A DNA stretch of 38,922 nucleotides from a virus, in the IMG/VR virus record IMGVR_UViG_3300032092_000089, positions 1 to 38,922 of that record; one strand, written 5' to 3'. Shown piece by piece: positions 14,751 to 33,610 of the stretch (within the stretch, counting starts at the first letter, position 1; every line of letters starts with the position of its first letter). A program made the position numbers and the translations under genes. Below the pieces are notes generated by a model. It saw only the letters and a program-made list of their open reading frames with translations, searched no databases and was not told where the DNA came from.

Positions 14751-16607
14751 ATGGCAAGTACGTATAGCAATCTCAAAATCCAGTTAATGACCACGGGTGA
14801 GAACTCGACCACGTGGGGCGACGTTACAAACGTCAACCTTGGTACGGCACTTGAAGAGGCCATTGTTGGTTCTAGCGACGTTACGTTTTCCAGCGCCAAC
14901 GTCACGCTGTCCCTCTCCAACACCAACGCTTCACAGGCTGCGCGTAACGTGCGGTTGCGCTGCACCGGCACAACTGGTGGCTCGACCCGTAACCTCGTGG
15001 TTCCCAGCATCGAGAAGCCGTACATCGTCCTGAACGATTGCGCGGACAGCATCCTTGTTAAGACCTCTGCTGGTAACGGCATCACCGTCCCTGCGGGTAA
15101 GACCATGTGGGTTTATAGCAATGGCACGGATGTAGTGGATGTCACCACGCACCTCACGTCGCTCACGCTTGCCACGGCGCTTCCTGTTCTCTCAGGAGGC
15201 ACAGGCTCCAACACTGCTTCGGGTGCACGGACTAACCTTGGCCTCGGCACAATCGCCACGCAGAACGCTAACGCTGTTGCCATCACTGGCGGCTCGATCA
15301 CGGGTATCACCGACCTTGCTATCGCTGATGGCGGCACAGGTGCTTCGACTGCTGCGGATGCACGGACCAATCTGGGTCTCGGTTCACTGGCTGTCCTCTC
15401 GTCGATCAACAACTCGAACTGGTCTGGCACCGCTCTGGCGGTAGCCAATGGCGGCACAGGCGCAACCGATGCGGCGACTGCTCGGACTAACCTCGGCGCT
15501 GGCACGGTCACTTCGGTTGCTGGTGCAGGCACAGTCAACGGTCTCACGCTCACCGGCACAGTTACTTCGTCTGGCTCGATCACGCTTGGCGGCACGCTCT
15601 CCGGCGTCAGCCTGACTTCGCAAGTCTCCGGTACACTTCCGATTGCTAATGGTGGTACGAACGCCACGACTGCTGGGGGTGCGCGCACCTCGCTCGGCTC
15701 GACCACGCTGGGCGATAACCTCTTCACAATCACTAACCCAAGTGCGGTTACATTCCCACGCTTCAACGCGGACAACACTGTCTCTGCTTTGGATGCCGCG
15801 ACTTTCCGGAGTGCCATCGGTGCGGGTACTAGTTCGGCCTCAGGCACGGTCACCAGTGTTTCTGGTACGGGCAGCGTCAACGGCCTCACCCTTACGGGCA
15901 CCGTTACCTCTTCGGGTTCACTTACCCTTGGTGGTTCTCTATCCAACGTCAACCTGTCAACCCAGATCACGGGCACTCTTGCAATCGGTAATGGCGGTAC
16001 AGGCGCAACCGATGCGGGCACCGCACGGTCTAACCTCGGCGTCCCATCTACCACGGGTTCCGGCGCAACCGGCAACTGGGGCATCAACGTCACGGGTAGC
16101 TCTGGCTCTTGCACGGGTAACGCAGCGACAGCTACGTCGGCTACGACGGCAGGTTCAGCAACCACAGCTACAACGGCTGGCTCGGTCACCAATGCGGTAA
16201 CTTTTACCAACACGGGTGGCGCAGCGGCAGGTACGACGTTCAATGGTTCCGCAGCGCGCACGGTTGACTATAGCACGGTAGGTGCACCTAAAGCAGACGG
16301 CACGGGCGCATCAGGCACTTGGGGTATCAATATCTCAGGGAACGCCAACTACGCTACGACTGCTGGGTCGGCTACAACTGCTACGACGGCTACGTCAGCG
16401 ACAAACGCTACCAATGCGACGAACGCAACGAACGCTACCAATGCGACGAACGCCACAAACGCAGCCAATCTCATCACGACCAACTTCTCCATCGTGGAAA
16501 GCGGTGGCGTCCTGTACTTTAAGTATGGCGGCACCAATATCGCTAAGCTAGAAAGCAACGGTGCGTTTACCGCGCTTAACAACGTCACAGCCTACGGGAG
16601 CATCTAA
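14751..16607 (+). CDS. Second fibre-like virion protein with GGTGAT repeats
   Basis: The protein has 618 residues. The N-terminal domain (MASTYSNLKIQLMTTGENS then TTWGDVTN-NLG-ALEEAI) is a familiar attachment domain of phage fibres. The shaft carries repeats near GGTGATDAATARTNLG and (S/T)GTVTSVxGxGxVNGLTLTGTVTS. The C-terminal third becomes low-complexity (TAGSATTATTAGS) and includes a run of Asn-Ala-Thr triplets before a short final strand domain ending ALNNVTAYGSI. Unlike the large fibre it lacks an S74 chaperone. It may be a shorter side fibre or the connector that carries the large fibre. Its TAA overlaps the next ATG. Confidence 0.8.
   Translation: MASTYSNLKIQLMTTGENSTTWGDVTNVNLGTALEEAIVGSSDVTFSSANVTLSLSNTNASQAARNVRLRCTGTTGGSTRNLVVPSIEKPYIVLNDCADSILVKTSAGNGITVPAGKTMWVYSNGTDVVDVTTHLTSLTLATALPVLSGGTGSNTASGARTNLGLGTIATQNANAVAITGGSITGITDLAIADGGTGASTAADARTNLGLGSLAVLSSINNSNWSGTALAVANGGTGATDAATARTNLGAGTVTSVAGAGTVNGLTLTGTVTSSGSITLGGTLSGVSLTSQVSGTLPIANGGTNATTAGGARTSLGSTTLGDNLFTITNPSAVTFPRFNADNTVSALDAATFRSAIGAGTSSASGTVTSVSGTGSVNGLTLTGTVTSSGSLTLGGSLSNVNLSTQITGTLAIGNGGTGATDAGTARSNLGVPSTTGSGATGNWGINVTGSSGSCTGNAATATSATTAGSATTATTAGSVTNAVTFTNTGGAAAGTTFNGSAARTVDYSTVGAPKADGTGASGTWGINISGNANYATTAGSATTATTATSATNATNATNATNATNATNATNAANLITTNFSIVESGGVLYFKYGGTNIAKLESNGAFTALNNVTAYGSI
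16401..16469 (+). repeat. Asn-Ala-Thr triplet run with 27-nt repeats
   Basis: This tract encodes alternating T-N-A units (seven in a row, then AAN). At DNA level a 23-base string beginning AACGCTACCAATGCG occurs at 16404 and again at 16431, 27 bases later. The tract can gain or lose nine-base units by slippage without breaking the frame. Confidence 0.75.
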
Positions 16608-25393: not shown

Positions 25394-28300
25394 ATGAGCA
25401 TCCTTGCTGATATTCGTCGTGAGTATCCAGAGTTTCGAGACCTGAGCGACCGTGAGCTATCAGAGGTACTCCGTAAAAAGTACTATTCCGGTGTGCCCAA
25501 GGACCAGTTCCAGAAGCAAATCTCTACCTCTGTCTCGTTTCCTACGGCTGCGAATATACCGCCACCGCCACCTGTCCGTGCGCCTGCCCCCGTGGTGGCT
25601 ACTCAGAAAAAAGCAGCGGCTGCACCGGAAGAGGAAGGATTTTTCTCGGCTATGGGTCGTGCAGTCGAGCGCGGCGTACCTACTCTACGTCGGGGTCTGG
25701 CGCAGATTGTGGAAGACTACCCCGAGATCGTCGGGTCTCTTTTTTCTACGTTATCTCCGGGTAACATGCAGTTTAATGATGTGGTATCGGCCCTTGGGAA
25801 GGCCGCAGCTAAATCGGAAACATACAAGGACCTCACAGGCGGGTTTGTGACCTCCGAACGTAAAGCCGCCGAAAAACAGATGGCTGACATCGGCCCTCGC
25901 AAGTACGGTGGTTTTTTCGAAGAAGAAGGTTTTGGGCGCAGCCTAGGCTCTCTAGCCGAAACAGTCGCGGAAAGTGCGCTGCCAGTAGGCGCTGGCGTTG
26001 CCACGGGTCTTGTCACACGTAGCCCTACAGCCGCCGGTCTTGTGATGGGCGCGGGAAGCGCCCCGTCTACCTATGGTGGTATCCGTGAGACCCAGAAAAC
26101 TGAAGGTATAGACGATGTGGGTCGCGCTGTGGCTGGTACTGCTGTGTCTTCCGCACTCGACTTGCTAACAGGTGTAGGCGGTAAAGTCCTTAGCGATACT
26201 GCGGCAATCGCAGCGCGTGAAATTTTAGAAGCAGGATTTAAGCAAGCTGCCATTCGTGTGGCCAAGTCAGGTGTCGAAGAAGCTGGCACGGAAATGCTTC
26301 AAAATGTTATTGAACAGGTAGCTGGGGGTACTAACCCAGCGACCAAACAGGCTATGTTGGCTACCCTTGAAGCAGGTCTTGCTGGCGCACTTGGCGGTAC
26401 AGTTTTTACGGGGACAACCGAAGCTATTGCAGCGCCTTTCCGACCTAAGGCTGGCAAAGCAGAAGCAGACCCTGCGGCTGTCATGGCAGAATTCCAACGT
26501 ATTGCAGCAGAAGAAGTCGCCAAGGTTATGGCGGCTAACCCCGGCATGAAGCAGAATGACGCTGTTAAGTTTGTCGAGGAAAATGCTGAAGCACTGTTTA
26601 ACCGTGCTACTGCTAACATAGTATCGGGAACTGAAGGAGTTCTAGATGTTGATACCGGAATGGATGTCGGCGGAGGAAGTGGAACAAGCACTACTCCTGA
26701 TCTCGGAACCACACCGCCCGTATCCGGTGTTGCAGACGTTGGAGAGACTGTCGGAGGAGGACTGGGGCGGTCTGTTCCTAGCGTACCAGTTCCTACAGAT
26801 GGCACGCCAACTGGAGAGCGTCCACTAATTGAGCCTACGGCTAAGCAAGTTAAAGCCACGGTACCTATTATTGAGCAGGCGTTCGAAGCCTCGGCTCTCG
26901 ACTTTGTAGAGCCTTACGGAAGCCTCCTCACCAAGGGCAATAAGCTAAACGCCGCCCAGAAGGTGCAGGCTGCACGGATCATTATCCAAAGCCCTGAAGT
27001 CGATCCGTACGATGCGATTGGCTCAGTGCTTGACCGTGGGTTGCGCCTGCGTGACGAGCAGGCTGCGGCTCCAAGGATGCCCAGACCCGGAGAAGTCCAA
27101 GGTATAATAGAGAAGTTAAACGAACTACGAGCTTCCAAGGGGCAACTGCCTATTGGTGAGGGGCCAAAATTCGTCATAGAACCGGTGCCGTCCACCCAAG
27201 CGCAACCCACACCCCCAGTGGTCGAACCCGCTGTACCCGAAGTTACTGCGCCCGAAGTTACTGCACCCGATGTAGCTGTACAGGAAACTGTACAGGAAGA
27301 AGCTCCGCTTAGCCGTGAAGAGAAACCGATTTATGACCCTGCGGATTGGACCCCGCAGGAAATCTACGACGACCTAACGCGTTTTGGTTACCGCGAAGCC
27401 GAGCGCCGTGGTTATATGACTAACACCGCCGAGTATGGCATGTTTGGTGAAGGTGTGCGGGAAGCAAAGAACCCCGATATCAAGCCCCTAACTGACGAAC
27501 AAGTTCTTGCCTTTGAGCGGGGTAGCCCCGAAGTACTCGCCGCTTACAAAGAAGGCCAGCAATGGGGGAAGGAACAGGTTGCATCCGCACAAGCTGCGCC
27601 AGTGGCCGAAGAAGCCGCACTTGAACCTGCGCCAGTGGCCGAAGAAGCCGCACTTGAACCTGCGCCAGTGGCCGAAGAAGCCGCACTTGAAGCTGCCCCG
27701 GTATCCGATGTTGCTCCTACTACGGTAGCTACATACGATGATGTCTTAGCAGAGGCTGAAACGCGGTTTAATGAAGGACGTATCACTCCTGCTGGGTTGG
27801 AATTAGTTCAAGAACGCGTGGGTCTGGGCCGCGAAGCCCAACAGAATGGTGAAGAAACGCGGTACACTCCTGAAGAAGTGGTGGCTGCGCTCGACCGAGT
27901 TACCACACAGGACTCCAAGGTGGAAATCTCTCCAGAGGGTAATCCTGAAGCCGAAGTCGAGTACATAACGGATGCAACGCGTGAAGCGGCGCAGACAATT
28001 CTGAATGACTTTATGGTGGGCGACCGCGTGCAGGTTGGCAGTGCGCCGGGTATTGTTGTTGGGCTTGATGGTGACTATATTCGGTTCCGCCCAGACAGCG
28101 CTACGTACGCCAAGGCGTACCACCGTGTCCCTAAAAGCAGCGCCACTTTGGTGGCGCGCCCGGATGATGCTACCACTGTTTCCGCCAGTAAGCTTGAAGG
28201 TCAGGATGCTAAGTTCGGTGAAGAAGCCGGACAACTTAACGCTGATATGGCGGGGCTAATCCAACTTCTGGGTGCCAACATGTACGCTGCAAACGTAGCG

Positions 28301-31300
28301 GATGTCTCCATCAAAGAATTGCTTCAGAACGCATTTGATGCCGTGAAGGGCGCAGTATCTGGCAAGCGGGCACCGTCGCTGTACAAAGATGGCAAGATTG
28401 AAATCATCCTAAACCGCACAGATCGTACGATTACCGTTAAGGATAATGCCCGAGGTATGACCCCCGAGATTGTACGGGACGCATTCTTCACGGTGGCTGG
28501 TTCCGATAAGTCGGACCTTGATCCTCAAGAGCGAAGCGGTGGTCTCGGCCTAGCTAAGATGGGCTTCATGATGGGGGCAGAGTCGATAAAGCTGGATACC
28601 GTGCGCGACGGAGTCCGGGTGAAGGTGGATGCTACCAGCAAGGAAATCGCAGGTAGTGACTTCAAGATCGTGAAGTCACCAGCCCCAGCGGGTGAGCATG
28701 GTACGGCTGTAACGGTTAAAATCCCTAAAACCTACACCGACCCCAAGACAGGAGACGAGAAGCCTATCTGGTTCCCACTCGGGAAGGATGGCGTCGCAAT
28801 CCTAGACAAACCGCTGATTGGTCCGGTGGAAATCAAGTTTACCTATAAAGGTGGCTACGACTCGGACGCCCCAGAGATACTACCGCTGGGTAAAAACTTC
28901 CCGTATGATAACTACCAGAAACTGGAAGCAAAATTTGATTGGGGTACCGTAGACATCTACTACGGGAAGGACCGTAAGAAATACCCAGCGCATCAAGTTC
29001 TATCGAGTGGCGTGTATCAGTTTACCGAGCGGTTTAAGCTGAATCAAAACGATACCATACCCTACGATATTATTGTTAACGTCAAGGCGGATGTCGAAGC
29101 CAAGCACCCAGACTACCCGTTTGAGAATAGCCGTGAGCGGTTCAAGGGGCGGTTGAAAGCTGATATAGACTCGCTGGGCCTCTACCTTGCCAAGATTGCG
29201 CGAGGGGCAGAAGCGGCTGACCTTAAAGATACGATGCAAAACGTCGTCTCACTCCCCCGCGTGGAAGCCGGAGAAGACCTAAAGGCGTTGGAGGGTAAGC
29301 TCAAAAAGTCATTTGAGAAGCCGGAAGGTTCCACCCGAACGCTACCGCAGCTTCCCACGCAGGTTACCATCACCGACCGAGGTGTTTTTGACACCCGTGG
29401 CCGTACTGTAGTGGATACGGTTAAGGAAGCCGAGAAGAAAAAGGAATCTACGTTCAAAGCTACGACGGAAGCGCCCACGCGGGATGATTTCATGATCGAG
29501 CTAGATCAGGACCCCCGTAACCCGATCTTCCATAACAATACTAGCTTTGATCCGATTGCAGTAGGCACCCCCTATGGCGACCCCGCCAAGTTCTTTGCTG
29601 AGCTTGGGTCGCTCTTTGTTGAGATGAAAGAGGCACTAGCTGCCAGTGGGCGCTGGAATTACGACCTGCTAACTCCAGAAAATATGTTCTACGCTGGTAT
29701 CGGTATCGACAAACAGTATGGCGGTCTCCACGCTAGGGTGCCGTATAAAGCACTACTCCTAAACCCGTTCTTTGATTGGGGGGCGCGTACGCTCAACGGT
29801 GTGCGTGGTAACATGCTGAACACGATGATTCACGAGATTGCCCACACGGGGAATATGGAACACGGTGTTGGCCACAATAACGAGATTATTAAAGTTGAGC
29901 AGTACCTTTACGACGAAGGGCTGTACGATTATTTCCGTGATGCCGTTATGGATATACTGTTACGGCACGAATCCACCTATACCGCGATGAGGGATGCATA
30001 TGGACAATCAACAACGCAAAACATTGCAAAGTCTCTTGAGGATTACGCCGAGGAGGGAGGGGCCAGTGCAAGCGCTGGACGAGATCAAGACGGCACTGGA
30101 GACACACCTGAAGCTGTACCAACAGGAGGGCGACAAGGAAGGGGCCGCAATTTATCAGCCGCTGCTTCAGCTAGCGCAGAAGGCCCAGAGTCTGGAGGAA
30201 CTGGAGGCGGCAGTGAGCCGTTAACTGATGCCAATGTTGAAAAAGCTGTTTCGGTTAAGCTGACTAAGGCGCAGATCAAACGCCTTGAAGCTGCGGCGGG
30301 TATCCGGGGCATGGAAGTCAGCAAGCTACAGAAGCGTATCATCCAGAGTCGTAGCGACAACGAGACCAAGGGGCTTATTAAGCGTCTTGTGGCGGCTATC
30401 AAAGACCCAGATGCCAATAGCGGTATCATAGCATCCCTTACTCAGAGTATGCCGGTAGAGGGTTATAAATTCATACTGGGCTTCCAGCAGATCGAGGACA
30501 TTTTCCGTCTAGCTAAGCTCGCCGGTATGAAGTCGATTGGTAAGATCGACACTATGATGCGGGAGGGGTATATCCCGTACGTCAACCGTATTGTGCGACG
30601 AGCAAGTGATATTGAAGAACAATGGACAGCGTTTGCCTCACGCAACCCAGAGGGTAATACAACGCTGGATGACACCATCATGTATTCAAACATGCTGGAT
30701 GCAGACCCAAGCTTGGCTGCGACTGCGGCGGAGTACATGCGTATCGACCCTAAACTCAAAGAGCTTGAGGGTAAGTTAGCTACGGAAGCCAACCCGAGTA
30801 AGCAGAAAAGCCTAAAGGGCCAGATCACCAACCGTAAAAACGATATCAAGCGGCTGTACTTCGGTGGCGAACTTAAGGATGAAGATGGCAATCCTGTCCT
30901 CGACGAGGATAAAAACCCGGTTGTCGTTCAAGGTTGGAACAAGTTGCCCCCAGAAGGTAGGAAAATCTTCAAGGCTGCTCGTGACTTCCACCGTGCCAAC
31001 TTCAATGAGCATTACCGCCTACTTATGCAGCGGATTGACGACGCCAAGTTCGACTCGAACGACGCTGTGAGGCTTAAGTCATCCATCGAGCAGATGTTTA
31101 ATAAGGCCCGGGAACGTACGATTTACTTCCCCGTCAAGCGGTTCGGAGAGTACTGGCTCAGCGTGGGTAGCGACTTCTACATGCGAGAGTCCGCCGCAGA
31201 ACTGAAAGCACTACAGCGTAGGTTGAAGAAGGAAGGCGAAACCCGTGCGATGGTAACGGGTACTAGCCGTGCGGACCTGCGCAACAAAGTCGCCAGCAAT

Positions 31301-33610
31301 GACGCCAGTGCGGCGCTCAAAGGTATTCTGGATGCTCTCGATGGTAGCAATAGCCCCAAGAGCAACGGAAAGCCTAGGCTTGAGAAGGACGACATGGATG
31401 GCTTGCGAGACCTCGTCTTTCAGATGTACCTGACGTCACTACCTGAAGCAGATATGCGTCGGCGTTTTGTCCACCGCCGGTTTGTAACTGGTTTCAGCAC
31501 CGACTCGCTCCGCACGTTTGCCGCTACGGCAGTAGCGTCAGCGAACCAACTTGGACGTCTAGCGTATAATTATAAATTTCAGAGTGCCCTCGAAGAAGCC
31601 AAAGAAGAATCCGAAAGCGATGAGCTAACTCCCTACCGCGATGCGCTCCGGCTTGAAATCGCAGACCGAGTGAAGAGCGCGGTAGCTCCGGATACGAATA
31701 GCGCTTTCCTTAATGCTGTTAACGCGCTCATAGCGTTCGGGTCAAAAGTTACGTTCTACCACCACCTGTCTTCAGCGGCATCTGCGGCAATTAACCTTAC
31801 CCAGCTACACACTTTGGGTCTTCCGGTCCTGTCGGGTGAATTTGGTGAAGCCAAGACGGCAGCTATGGCTGCTCGATATACGACTTCGTTCTTGGCTGGC
31901 CGGGAAATCCCTAACCCGTTCCGCGACGAAGATGGTAACCTTACGCTGCAAGCTCCAGATTTTAAGTTTGAAAACAGCGGCTACATGCGTAGCCTCAAAG
32001 AGAGCGATCCTGAACGTTACAAACAGACGCTGGGCGCATGGGAATACGCACAAGACCATGACGTCATTGAGAGCACTTTTGCTTCAAGTAGCCAGCTTTA
32101 TGAGCGCAGCAACACACCCACCGGAGATTTTAATTTCCGGCAGGCGGTACGCCGAGGTGAAGTATTGACCGCAGGCCAGCGAGCCGCTGCCAATACCATG
32201 AGTGCTATGGGCTTCCTGTTCCACACGACCGAAACAATCGGGCGCAGTGTCATGTATATGTCCACCTTTGACCTAGCCTACGAGCGGGCAATAGGTAAGG
32301 GTAAGACGCCGGAGGAAGCGGGTGTAGAAGCCCGCAAGTTAGCGACTGATCTAACAAATAAGGCTATGTTCGATTTCACGAACTGGAACAAGTCACGTTT
32401 CGCTCAGGCTCCTCTGACTCGGTTTGCGCTCCAGATGACTTCGTATATACATTCGCTGTCATCGTTAATGCTGCGTAGCTTTGTCGGTATGCTCCCGTAC
32501 TTCAACAAGGAAGGCAAAGCAGCCGCAGCCCGTGTGTTCTTCGGTTCCTCTGGTGTCACCGCACTCTACGGTGGTATGCAGGCCACCCTATTCTCCCCTC
32601 TAATTATGGGCGCGTACACCGTCGCTAAGTATGTCGAAAGTCTGCTTGAAGAGGATGACGAGGAAGAGGAAATTAAACAAGACTACCTCAATACAAGCAC
32701 GATTGAGGGTAAGTTGTTGAAATACGCTGACGAGAACAAAAACGAACTGGGGAAGAAGAATATGGATTACTATATCCGGGCGACCTTCATCCCGGAGACG
32801 TTTGGTAAAGGAAGCACCTTAGCCAACGCATTGGGCCTCAGCGACAAGGCAGCGGCCAATCTGGCGACCGCTGCGGATAGCGGCATACCAGCACTCTTCG
32901 GCGTAGATATATCTAACTCCGTTGCCATGGGTGACCTGCCGTTTATCTGGAGTAATGTGCAGGTGAAGGGCGATACACCTGAAGTCCGGGCCTATGAAGC
33001 CACGGCAAGGATGGCGCTTGGCCCATTTGGTAGCGTGGGTATTTCATACGTTAAGGCGGCTGACGCGTGGAACAATGGTGATATCCAGCAGGCCATGGAG
33101 TTGGCGGTTCCGGCGATCATCCGTAACCCCTTGAAAGCCCTACGCCTCCAAGAGGAAGGACTGAAGATCGGGAAAGACAAGGATATCCAGCTTAAGGACC
33201 CCAGCTACTACACCGGTGGTAAAGTTTTGTTGCAGTCCCTTGGCTTCAAAGACGCGGAGACAACGCGCAACATGGAGCTTGATATGATGGCAGGTGAGGT
33301 TGAGCGGGAAGTGGCAGCGCAGAAGACCGAGTTACTTGACCGTCGGTACCGCGCTATCCTCGCCTTCGAGAAAAACCCATCAAAGGAGAACGAGGATAAG
33401 TGGAACGCAGTTGAGCGCGACATGGACATCTACAACCTTGTCTACCCCTCGAACGCAATCACTTTGGAGACCAAGACAAAATCGATTGACGCCAAGCGGC
33501 GGGACGCCACCGATAAGGCGTACGGACTTACCGTTAATAAGGATATTCCGATACGGGAGGCCACACAGGAAGAGCGCCTCGAACAGTTTCTTCGAGACTC
33601 AGGACAATAA
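25394..33610 (+). CDS. Giant polyvalent ejection protein: GHKL ATPase, HExxH peptidase, PLxRFG segment
   Basis: The protein has 2738 residues. The N-terminus (ILADIRREYPEFRDLSDREL) is typical of phage ejection proteins. Low-complexity linkers follow, including three 11-residue repeats. Near residues 860-925 lies a small beta domain (VGDRVQVGSAPGIVVGL). A GHKL/Hsp90-type ATP-binding domain follows: N-box ELLQNAFDA (975-983), KDNARGM with Asp1017, and SGGLGLAKMGF from 1048. Then comes HEIAH (1480-1484), a zinc peptidase-type motif with His1490 or His1494 as possible third ligand. Residues 2340-2344 read PLTRF, the hallmark of the PLxRFG domain of polyvalent phage proteins. I infer that it enters the cell with the DNA and acts early, perhaps on host defences. 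Two nested reading frames overlap it. Confidence 0.85.
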   Translation: MSILADIRREYPEFRDLSDRELSEVLRKKYYSGVPKDQFQKQISTSVSFPTAANIPPPPPVRAPAPVVATQKKAAAAPEEEGFFSAMGRAVERGVPTLRRGLAQIVEDYPEIVGSLFSTLSPGNMQFNDVVSALGKAAAKSETYKDLTGGFVTSERKAAEKQMADIGPRKYGGFFEEEGFGRSLGSLAETVAESALPVGAGVATGLVTRSPTAAGLVMGAGSAPSTYGGIRETQKTEGIDDVGRAVAGTAVSSALDLLTGVGGKVLSDTAAIAAREILEAGFKQAAIRVAKSGVEEAGTEMLQNVIEQVAGGTNPATKQAMLATLEAGLAGALGGTVFTGTTEAIAAPFRPKAGKAEADPAAVMAEFQRIAAEEVAKVMAANPGMKQNDAVKFVEENAEALFNRATANIVSGTEGVLDVDTGMDVGGGSGTSTTPDLGTTPPVSGVADVGETVGGGLGRSVPSVPVPTDGTPTGERPLIEPTAKQVKATVPIIEQAFEASALDFVEPYGSLLTKGNKLNAAQKVQAARIIIQSPEVDPYDAIGSVLDRGLRLRDEQAAAPRMPRPGEVQGIIEKLNELRASKGQLPIGEGPKFVIEPVPSTQAQPTPPVVEPAVPEVTAPEVTAPDVAVQETVQEEAPLSREEKPIYDPADWTPQEIYDDLTRFGYREAERRGYMTNTAEYGMFGEGVREAKNPDIKPLTDEQVLAFERGSPEVLAAYKEGQQWGKEQVASAQAAPVAEEAALEPAPVAEEAALEPAPVAEEAALEAAPVSDVAPTTVATYDDVLAEAETRFNEGRITPAGLELVQERVGLGREAQQNGEETRYTPEEVVAALDRVTTQDSKVEISPEGNPEAEVEYITDATREAAQTILNDFMVGDRVQVGSAPGIVVGLDGDYIRFRPDSATYAKAYHRVPKSSATLVARPDDATTVSASKLEGQDAKFGEEAGQLNADMAGLIQLLGANMYAANVADVSIKELLQNAFDAVKGAVSGKRAPSLYKDGKIEIILNRTDRTITVKDNARGMTPEIVRDAFFTVAGSDKSDLDPQERSGGLGLAKMGFMMGAESIKLDTVRDGVRVKVDATSKEIAGSDFKIVKSPAPAGEHGTAVTVKIPKTYTDPKTGDEKPIWFPLGKDGVAILDKPLIGPVEIKFTYKGGYDSDAPEILPLGKNFPYDNYQKLEAKFDWGTVDIYYGKDRKKYPAHQVLSSGVYQFTERFKLNQNDTIPYDIIVNVKADVEAKHPDYPFENSRERFKGRLKADIDSLGLYLAKIARGAEAADLKDTMQNVVSLPRVEAGEDLKALEGKLKKSFEKPEGSTRTLPQLPTQVTITDRGVFDTRGRTVVDTVKEAEKKKESTFKATTEAPTRDDFMIELDQDPRNPIFHNNTSFDPIAVGTPYGDPAKFFAELGSLFVEMKEALAASGRWNYDLLTPENMFYAGIGIDKQYGGLHARVPYKALLLNPFFDWGARTLNGVRGNMLNTMIHEIAHTGNMEHGVGHNNEIIKVEQYLYDEGLYDYFRDAVMDILLRHESTYTAMRDAYGQSTTQNIAKSLEDYAEEGGASASAGRDQDGTGDTPEAVPTGGRQGRGRNLSAAASASAEGPESGGTGGGSEPLTDANVEKAVSVKLTKAQIKRLEAAAGIRGMEVSKLQKRIIQSRSDNETKGLIKRLVAAIKDPDANSGIIASLTQSMPVEGYKFILGFQQIEDIFRLAKLAGMKSIGKIDTMMREGYIPYVNRIVRRASDIEEQWTAFASRNPEGNTTLDDTIMYSNMLDADPSLAATAAEYMRIDPKLKELEGKLATEANPSKQKSLKGQITNRKNDIKRLYFGGELKDEDGNPVLDEDKNPVVVQGWNKLPPEGRKIFKAARDFHRANFNEHYRLLMQRIDDAKFDSNDAVRLKSSIEQMFNKARERTIYFPVKRFGEYWLSVGSDFYMRESAAELKALQRRLKKEGETRAMVTGTSRADLRNKVASNDASAALKGILDALDGSNSPKSNGKPRLEKDDMDGLRDLVFQMYLTSLPEADMRRRFVHRRFVTGFSTDSLRTFAATAVASANQLGRLAYNYKFQSALEEAKEESESDELTPYRDALRLEIADRVKSAVAPDTNSAFLNAVNALIAFGSKVTFYHHLSSAASAAINLTQLHTLGLPVLSGEFGEAKTAAMAARYTTSFLAGREIPNPFRDEDGNLTLQAPDFKFENSGYMRSLKESDPERYKQTLGAWEYAQDHDVIESTFASSSQLYERSNTPTGDFNFRQAVRRGEVLTAGQRAAANTMSAMGFLFHTTETIGRSVMYMSTFDLAYERAIGKGKTPEEAGVEARKLATDLTNKAMFDFTNWNKSRFAQAPLTRFALQMTSYIHSLSSLMLRSFVGMLPYFNKEGKAAAARVFFGSSGVTALYGGMQATLFSPLIMGAYTVAKYVESLLEEDDEEEEIKQDYLNTSTIEGKLLKYADENKNELGKKNMDYYIRATFIPETFGKGSTLANALGLSDKAAANLATAADSGIPALFGVDISNSVAMGDLPFIWSNVQVKGDTPEVRAYEATARMALGPFGSVGISYVKAADAWNNGDIQQAMELAVPAIIRNPLKALRLQEEGLKIGKDKDIQLKDPSYYTGGKVLLQSLGFKDAETTRNMELDMMAGEVEREVAAQKTELLDRRYRAILAFEKNPSKENEDKWNAVERDMDIYNLVYPSNAITLETKTKSIDAKRRDATDKAYGLTVNKDIPIREATQEERLEQFLRDSGQ
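26646..26828 (+). CDS. Nested overlapping small gene candidate A (inside the giant gene)
   Basis: A 60-codon frame, shifted +1 relative to the giant gene, starts at ATG 26646. AAGGAG lies at 26634-26639, six bases before it, a textbook ribosome binding site. The product looks protein-like and amphipathic (LIPEWMSAEEVEQALLLI, then LQTLERLSEEDWGGLFLAYQ). In the giant frame the same DNA gives a Gly/Thr/Pro linker (VGGGSGTSTTPDLGTTPP). By hand count the third codon base is G or C in about 44 of 60 codons in this frame and about 20 of 60 in the giant frame, where roughly half is usual. Function is unknown. It could be chance, but three signals agree. Confidence 0.55.
   Translation: MLIPEWMSAEEVEQALLLISEPHRPYPVLQTLERLSEEDWGGLFLAYQFLQMARQLESVH
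27596..27694 (+). repeat. Three tandem 33-nt repeats in the giant gene
   Basis: Three near-identical 33-base units start at 27596, 27629 and 27662 and encode APVAEEAALEP, APVAEEAALEP and APVAEEAALEA. The acidic Ala/Pro-rich segment is probably a flexible linker before the ATPase region. Copy number could vary by recombination or slippage. Confidence 0.9.
30000..30224 (+). CDS. Nested overlapping small gene candidate B (inside the giant gene)
   Basis: A second frame, shifted +1 like candidate A, runs from ATG 30000 (GAGGG at 29989-29993, six bases upstream) to 30224 and gives 74 residues. A GTG at 30066 behind a GGAGGGAGGGG tract could give 52. The product is a regular charged helix (VQALDEIKTALETHLKLYQ, AAIYQPLLQLAQKAQSLEEL). 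The giant frame here is low-complexity (GGRQGRGRNLSAAASASAEG). From 30066 on, by hand count, third bases are G or C in about 38 of 52 codons in this frame but only about 16 of 53 in the giant frame. It lies between the peptidase region and the PLxRFG part, so it may be a remnant of a once separate gene there. Confidence 0.55.
   Translation: MDNQQRKTLQSLLRITPRREGPVQALDEIKTALETHLKLYQQEGDKEGAAIYQPLLQLAQKAQSLEELEAAVSR

Follow-up and report, generated by a model that had tools for sequence, protein, structure and literature searches.

Can a short open reading frame lying wholly inside a much longer phage gene be a gene in its own right, and what would its product do there? The question is raised by a 38,922-nucleotide stretch of viral DNA (IMG/VR record IMGVR_UViG_3300032092_000089, positions 1 to 38,922, called the window below), in which a first-pass annotation made from the letters alone had placed a second small nested gene, nested gene B, in the +1 frame relative to a giant ORF (25394-33610). 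The coordinates given for it, from ATG 30000 to TAA 30224, proved exact, and the product is conserved in 48 relatives (Table 1). By the definition of Iyer et al. (PMC5512222), the giant gene encodes a phage polyvalent protein. Its HATPase match is above the cut-off, the LPD39 match is below it in the window (19 vs 27 bits) and above it in the relatives L010 and L015, and the C-terminal part matches DarB-like and polyvalent PHROGs. From its family, the giant protein would be expected to be packaged in the virion and injected.

Table 1. Features of the giant gene and of the frame nested within it (window coordinates).
Feature	Coordinates	Strand	Basis and remarks
Giant host gene, 2738-aa polyvalent protein	25394..33610	+	HATPase_c, weak LPD39; DarB-like/polyvalent PHROGs
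GHKL/HSP90-type ATPase domain	28304..28729	+	PF02518/PF13589; homologous modules resemble T4-type rIIA
Zincin-like metallopeptidase module	29549..29998	+	Alignment; HEIAH at 29831-29845, HExxH kept in relatives; directly upstream of nested gene
Putative ribosome-binding site GAGGG	29989..29993	+	Six bases 5' of ATG 30000; sequence and AGR codon bias
Nested gene B	30000..30224	+	74 codons plus TAA; predicted four-helix protein; start, frame and product conserved in 48 relatives; codon-position shift, null test, AF2 pLDDT 92.2, pTM 0.80
Doubly constrained zone	30000..30053	+	Giant residues YGQSTTQNIAKSLEDYA and nested residues MDNQQRKTLQSLLRIT both conserved; giant third-position mismatch 0.30, down from about 0.57-0.60
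Nested-frame-constrained zone	30054..30224	+	Giant frame a free Gly/Ser/Ala-rich linker; nested identity above giant
C-terminal polyvalent module	30202..33610	+	Exchanged separately from the peptidase-nested block; 85% DNA identity with L002 from 30202

From our analysis of the start region, the spacing reported between the GAGGG motif and ATG 30000 is exact, and a second in-frame ATG lies at 29994. The giant-frame Tyr codon that supplies the nested ATG is TAT in all 38 genomes compared (16 expected). Of the 28 relatives with a giant-frame Arg codon within the ribosome-binding site, 26 use AGR there and the remaining two read GGGAGG; AGR is usually the minority Arg codon in these giant genes (6-35% in nearly all). 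The third-base G+C counts of the first-pass annotation (38/52 in the nested frame when counted from the GTG, 16/53 in the giant frame) were also accurate. It had further pointed to GTG 30066, preceded by a purine tract, as an alternative start; the tract (GAGGAGGGAGGGG) is present, but this GTG is particular to the window, and since it is not kept in the alignment of relatives, we rejected it and regard ATG 30000 as the conserved start.

A first scan found a nested product in L001 that is 51% identical over 75 residues and lies in the same relative frame. Relatives were then collected from viral contigs by alignment of the peptidase alone, the nested ORF being kept out of the query to avoid bias. 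Each of the 48 close-peptidase contigs (peptidase identity 51-73%) has an ATG at this codon position, followed by an open nested frame, with ORF lengths of 66-84 codons (median 72) and products that align over their whole length and share the motif MDxQQxxTLQSLLRxT...PPQHRLE...LYxQExDxEGxxxYxPL...AxSVEELE. Across 38 dereplicated genomes, no other part of the giant gene's plus strand has an alternative frame that stays open in nearly every one. The nested gene is present as one copy per phage and, in the records searched, never away from the peptidase. The first-pass annotation had also looked to a stand-alone homologue of the 74-residue product, and none turned up in genome contigs, phages, plasmids, bacterial genomes or whole viral records; given the other evidence on the frame, this absence does not refute a nested gene. 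Searches for named-phage relatives of the peptidase module likewise found none.

We then applied the codon-phase test for overlapping-gene constraint that had been proposed for the locus, using 38 dereplicated genomes (703 pairs) for this and for the null tests. Upstream of the overlap, mismatches concentrate in the giant third codon position (0.51-0.64); over the first 18 overlap codons the mismatch at that position is down to 0.30, and past this doubly constrained zone variability peaks at the third position of the nested frame (0.54). The fast-evolving codon position shifts from the giant to the nested frame only at 30002-30241, and the normal pattern is found again after about 30241. Within 30054-30224, nested amino acid identity is 0.457 vs 0.286 for the giant frame, the nested value being higher in 693 of the 703 pairs; the giant frame is here the Gly/Ser/Ala-rich linker that the annotation had described as low-complexity. 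When giant-frame synonymous codons were redrawn, the nested identity fell to 0.150 ± 0.003, and at least 18 genomes would be expected to carry a stop in the nested frame, against 0 of 38 observed. The effect is large, with null z values of 48-98 that do not serve as probabilities because the genome pairs are not independent. An open frame by itself was rejected as weak evidence, as a median of 30% of the gene-wide synonymous-codon shuffles per genome leave the frame equally open. By these measures, the second frame is under purifying selection beyond that acting on the giant frame, and nested gene B is almost certainly a genuine protein-coding gene, its translation being read from sequence evolution.

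The regular helical product that had been anticipated from the letters is borne out by AlphaFold (AF2), which predicts a confident four-helix protein (pLDDT 92.2, pTM 0.80). Searches for a known family in Pfam, PHROGs, NCBIfam, PADLOC and PDB sequences gave only chance-level scores for this product, and Foldseek of the predicted structure returned nothing with E ≤ 0.001. The fold libraries yielded generic helical bundles only, with no match to an inhibitor or chaperone; the best VIA Z for the nested fold was 7.3, a value common among helical bundles.

Comparison with a sister phage, L002, locates the nested gene at the joint between giant-gene modules, as had been proposed. The HATPase-peptidase part is only 28% identical between the two phages and their nested genes differ, whereas open-frame residues 1611-2742 are 86% identical, and from position 30202, which is 20 bases before the nested stop, the two DNAs share 85% identity over 3.5 kb. 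The nested gene thus travels with the peptidase, the joint falling at the 3' end of the nested gene; peptidase and nested gene are passed on and exchanged between phages as one block, bounded at that end. The segments involved, 30202-33610 in the window and 5522-9023 in L002, mark a recent module swap inside the giant gene. The further idea that the giant gene arose by fusion, with a small gene retained between its formerly separate parts, is not supported. The sole split relative is L065, where the peptidase protein ends shortly past the nested gene and a separate ORF encodes the C-terminal module; even there the nested gene is contained entirely in the tail of the peptidase gene rather than standing between the two genes. 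Nested gene A (28005-28259), the companion proposed upstream, did not hold up as a conserved gene either, as the giant frame keeps its normal codon pattern there without any codon-position shift, the frame is not kept open in relatives, and the best tblastn match (E 0.002) came from one relative only.

Several other observations were made on the giant gene and its surroundings. The ATPase module of L075 matches rIIA genes (tblastn E 6e-7, 28.7% over about 170 aa), a resemblance that links rIIA-like ATPases to metallopeptidases in polyvalent proteins. Over the ATPase domain, an antisense -1 frame (28325-28637) is open in all 38 relatives with a median of about 130 codons; we rejected it as a gene, its openness being probably a matter of composition because variability at the giant third positions is normal there. 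In L057 (2-3118) and L069, an early stop or frameshift, real or an assembly error, interrupts the giant frame, which is intact in their respective close relatives L056 and L068. Elsewhere in the window, a 382-codon antisense ORF (15113-16261, minus strand) lies opposite a tail-fibre-like gene (14751-16607).

At greater distance, a +1 ORF of 57-84 codons occupies the equivalent place in L002 and alongside peptidases of 24-36% identity. When the main-group profile was compared with the distant nested proteins, L065 being held out of the main alignment, only the L065 product was clearly related (hmmsearch E 2.8e-9; 11 sequences searched). A second group (L071, L072, L074, L079, L082, and L083) encodes a nested product without clear sequence similarity to the main group; nevertheless, it shows the same codon-position shift, a nested identity of 0.70 vs 0.49 for the giant frame, and GGAG-type sites a few bases before a start codon at which ATG and GTG interchange exactly. 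Four helices in matching order are predicted for each group (pLDDT 92 in the main and 82 in the second group), and an hhalign comparison (E 0.0018, probability 15%) is only suggestive of kinship between them. In L066-L068, L070/L002, and L075/L076, the evidence for a nested ORF is mainly its position, in few sequences.

Independent initiation and a folded small protein are shown by their evolution, so far as these genomes can be read. Ribosomes would recognise a binding site lying within the conserved end of the metallopeptidase domain, begin at ATG 30000 and make a small four-helix protein, which purifying selection maintains. Along the overlap, the giant frame is left with the role of a flexible link from the peptidase to the following module, and this is why a second gene can be tolerated there. 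In our estimate, the best explanation, with a probability of about one half, is that the nested protein is a cognate partner of the ATPase-peptidase module; we infer this role because it is always encoded after the peptidase, in single copy, and is co-exchanged with it. Co-inheritance is itself weak evidence for a partnership, since physical overlap alone would produce it. Metallopeptidases have been proposed to process injected polyvalent proteins (PMC5512222). The small protein would most likely act as a regulator or chaperone: bound to the ATPase/peptidase part of the giant protein during virion production, it would keep that part inactive, or in its correct fold, up to delivery of the giant protein, and would so prevent premature self-processing or attack on host targets.

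A real nested gene could instead encode a small protein that acts alone, for example in host takeover or counter-defence, and has nothing to do with the peptidase; its location would then reflect the linker being the only giant-gene DNA free for a second code. Small stand-alone helical phage proteins are often aimed at host factors, the giant frame is indeed a free linker over the overlap, and the dissimilar nested sequences of the distant groups would fit turnover. Independent effectors usually move around, however, and here no free-standing copies turned up in phages, plasmids or bacterial genomes, and the nested frame keeps its place behind the peptidase even as peptidase identity ranges over 24-73%; we consider an independent effector possible but the less likely reading. 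Programmed frameshifting from the giant frame, which would append the four helices to a truncated HATPase-peptidase protein and need no independent start, seems improbable. It would suit a +1 frame on the same strand at the end of the peptidase domain, a combination of short and long product forms, and the nested frame being open for at least 12 codons upstream of the ATG in some relatives; against it, the upstream stop is only three codons from the ATG in most relatives, the ATG and ribosome-binding site appear selected at the codon level, the second group swaps start codons precisely at the start, and a shared slippery site was not apparent by eye. That the frame is functionless and open merely through the Gly/Ser/Ala-rich composition of the giant protein is hardly credible, as the shuffles that leave it open by chance are outweighed by product conservation, the codon-position shift, the codon choice at the start and ribosome-binding site, and the null test, which already refute it.

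Extending the preferred reading of a cognate partner to the distant groups, we speculate, with some doubt, that phage polyvalent genes carry an unrecognised and anciently conserved slot after the metallopeptidase, filled in the +1 frame by a group-specific helical partner and swapped as a cassette with the peptidase. Each group would fill the slot with a strongly diverged or unrelated protein matched to its own peptidase. Conceivably, this would resemble toxin-immunity pairs, in which the partner is also swapped as a cassette, with the difference that the phage partner is written inside the effector's own gene.

In lambda, the Rz/Rz1 pair is a case of a complete small gene nested in another frame, the product of which works with that of the host gene; it is a precedent only, as nested gene B has neither a lysis role nor a lipoprotein signal. 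Most overprinted genes described to date belong to small RNA or ssDNA viruses. The present case is like viral overprinted genes (PMC8227390) in that an older gene, low-complexity over the overlap, also encodes a small protein in a second frame; it differs in that a tailed phage's giant polyvalent protein is the host and the overlap sits in an inter-domain linker, its position kept across very divergent hosts. The DarB-like PHROGs, LPD39, HExxH and giant size liken the host gene to the zincin-like metallopeptidase-bearing polyvalent proteins of phages (PMC5512222), a paper in which a word search for overlap gave no hits. We found no description of a gene nested in such a protein, and our literature searches likewise found none of nested gene B. 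Nested overlapping genes are thus a known kind, and this one is unusual in being deeply conserved and in a setting for which we found no description. It offers a clean and heavily replicated functional gene-within-gene in tailed phages, which are not short of space, and it is invisible to standard annotation and absent from Pfam, PHROGs, NCBIfam, and PADLOC. In this light, the low-complexity linkers of giant phage proteins appear worth screening for a second code. Should the product control the adjoining peptidase, it would open a way to study how polyvalent proteins destined for injection stay inactive until they are delivered.
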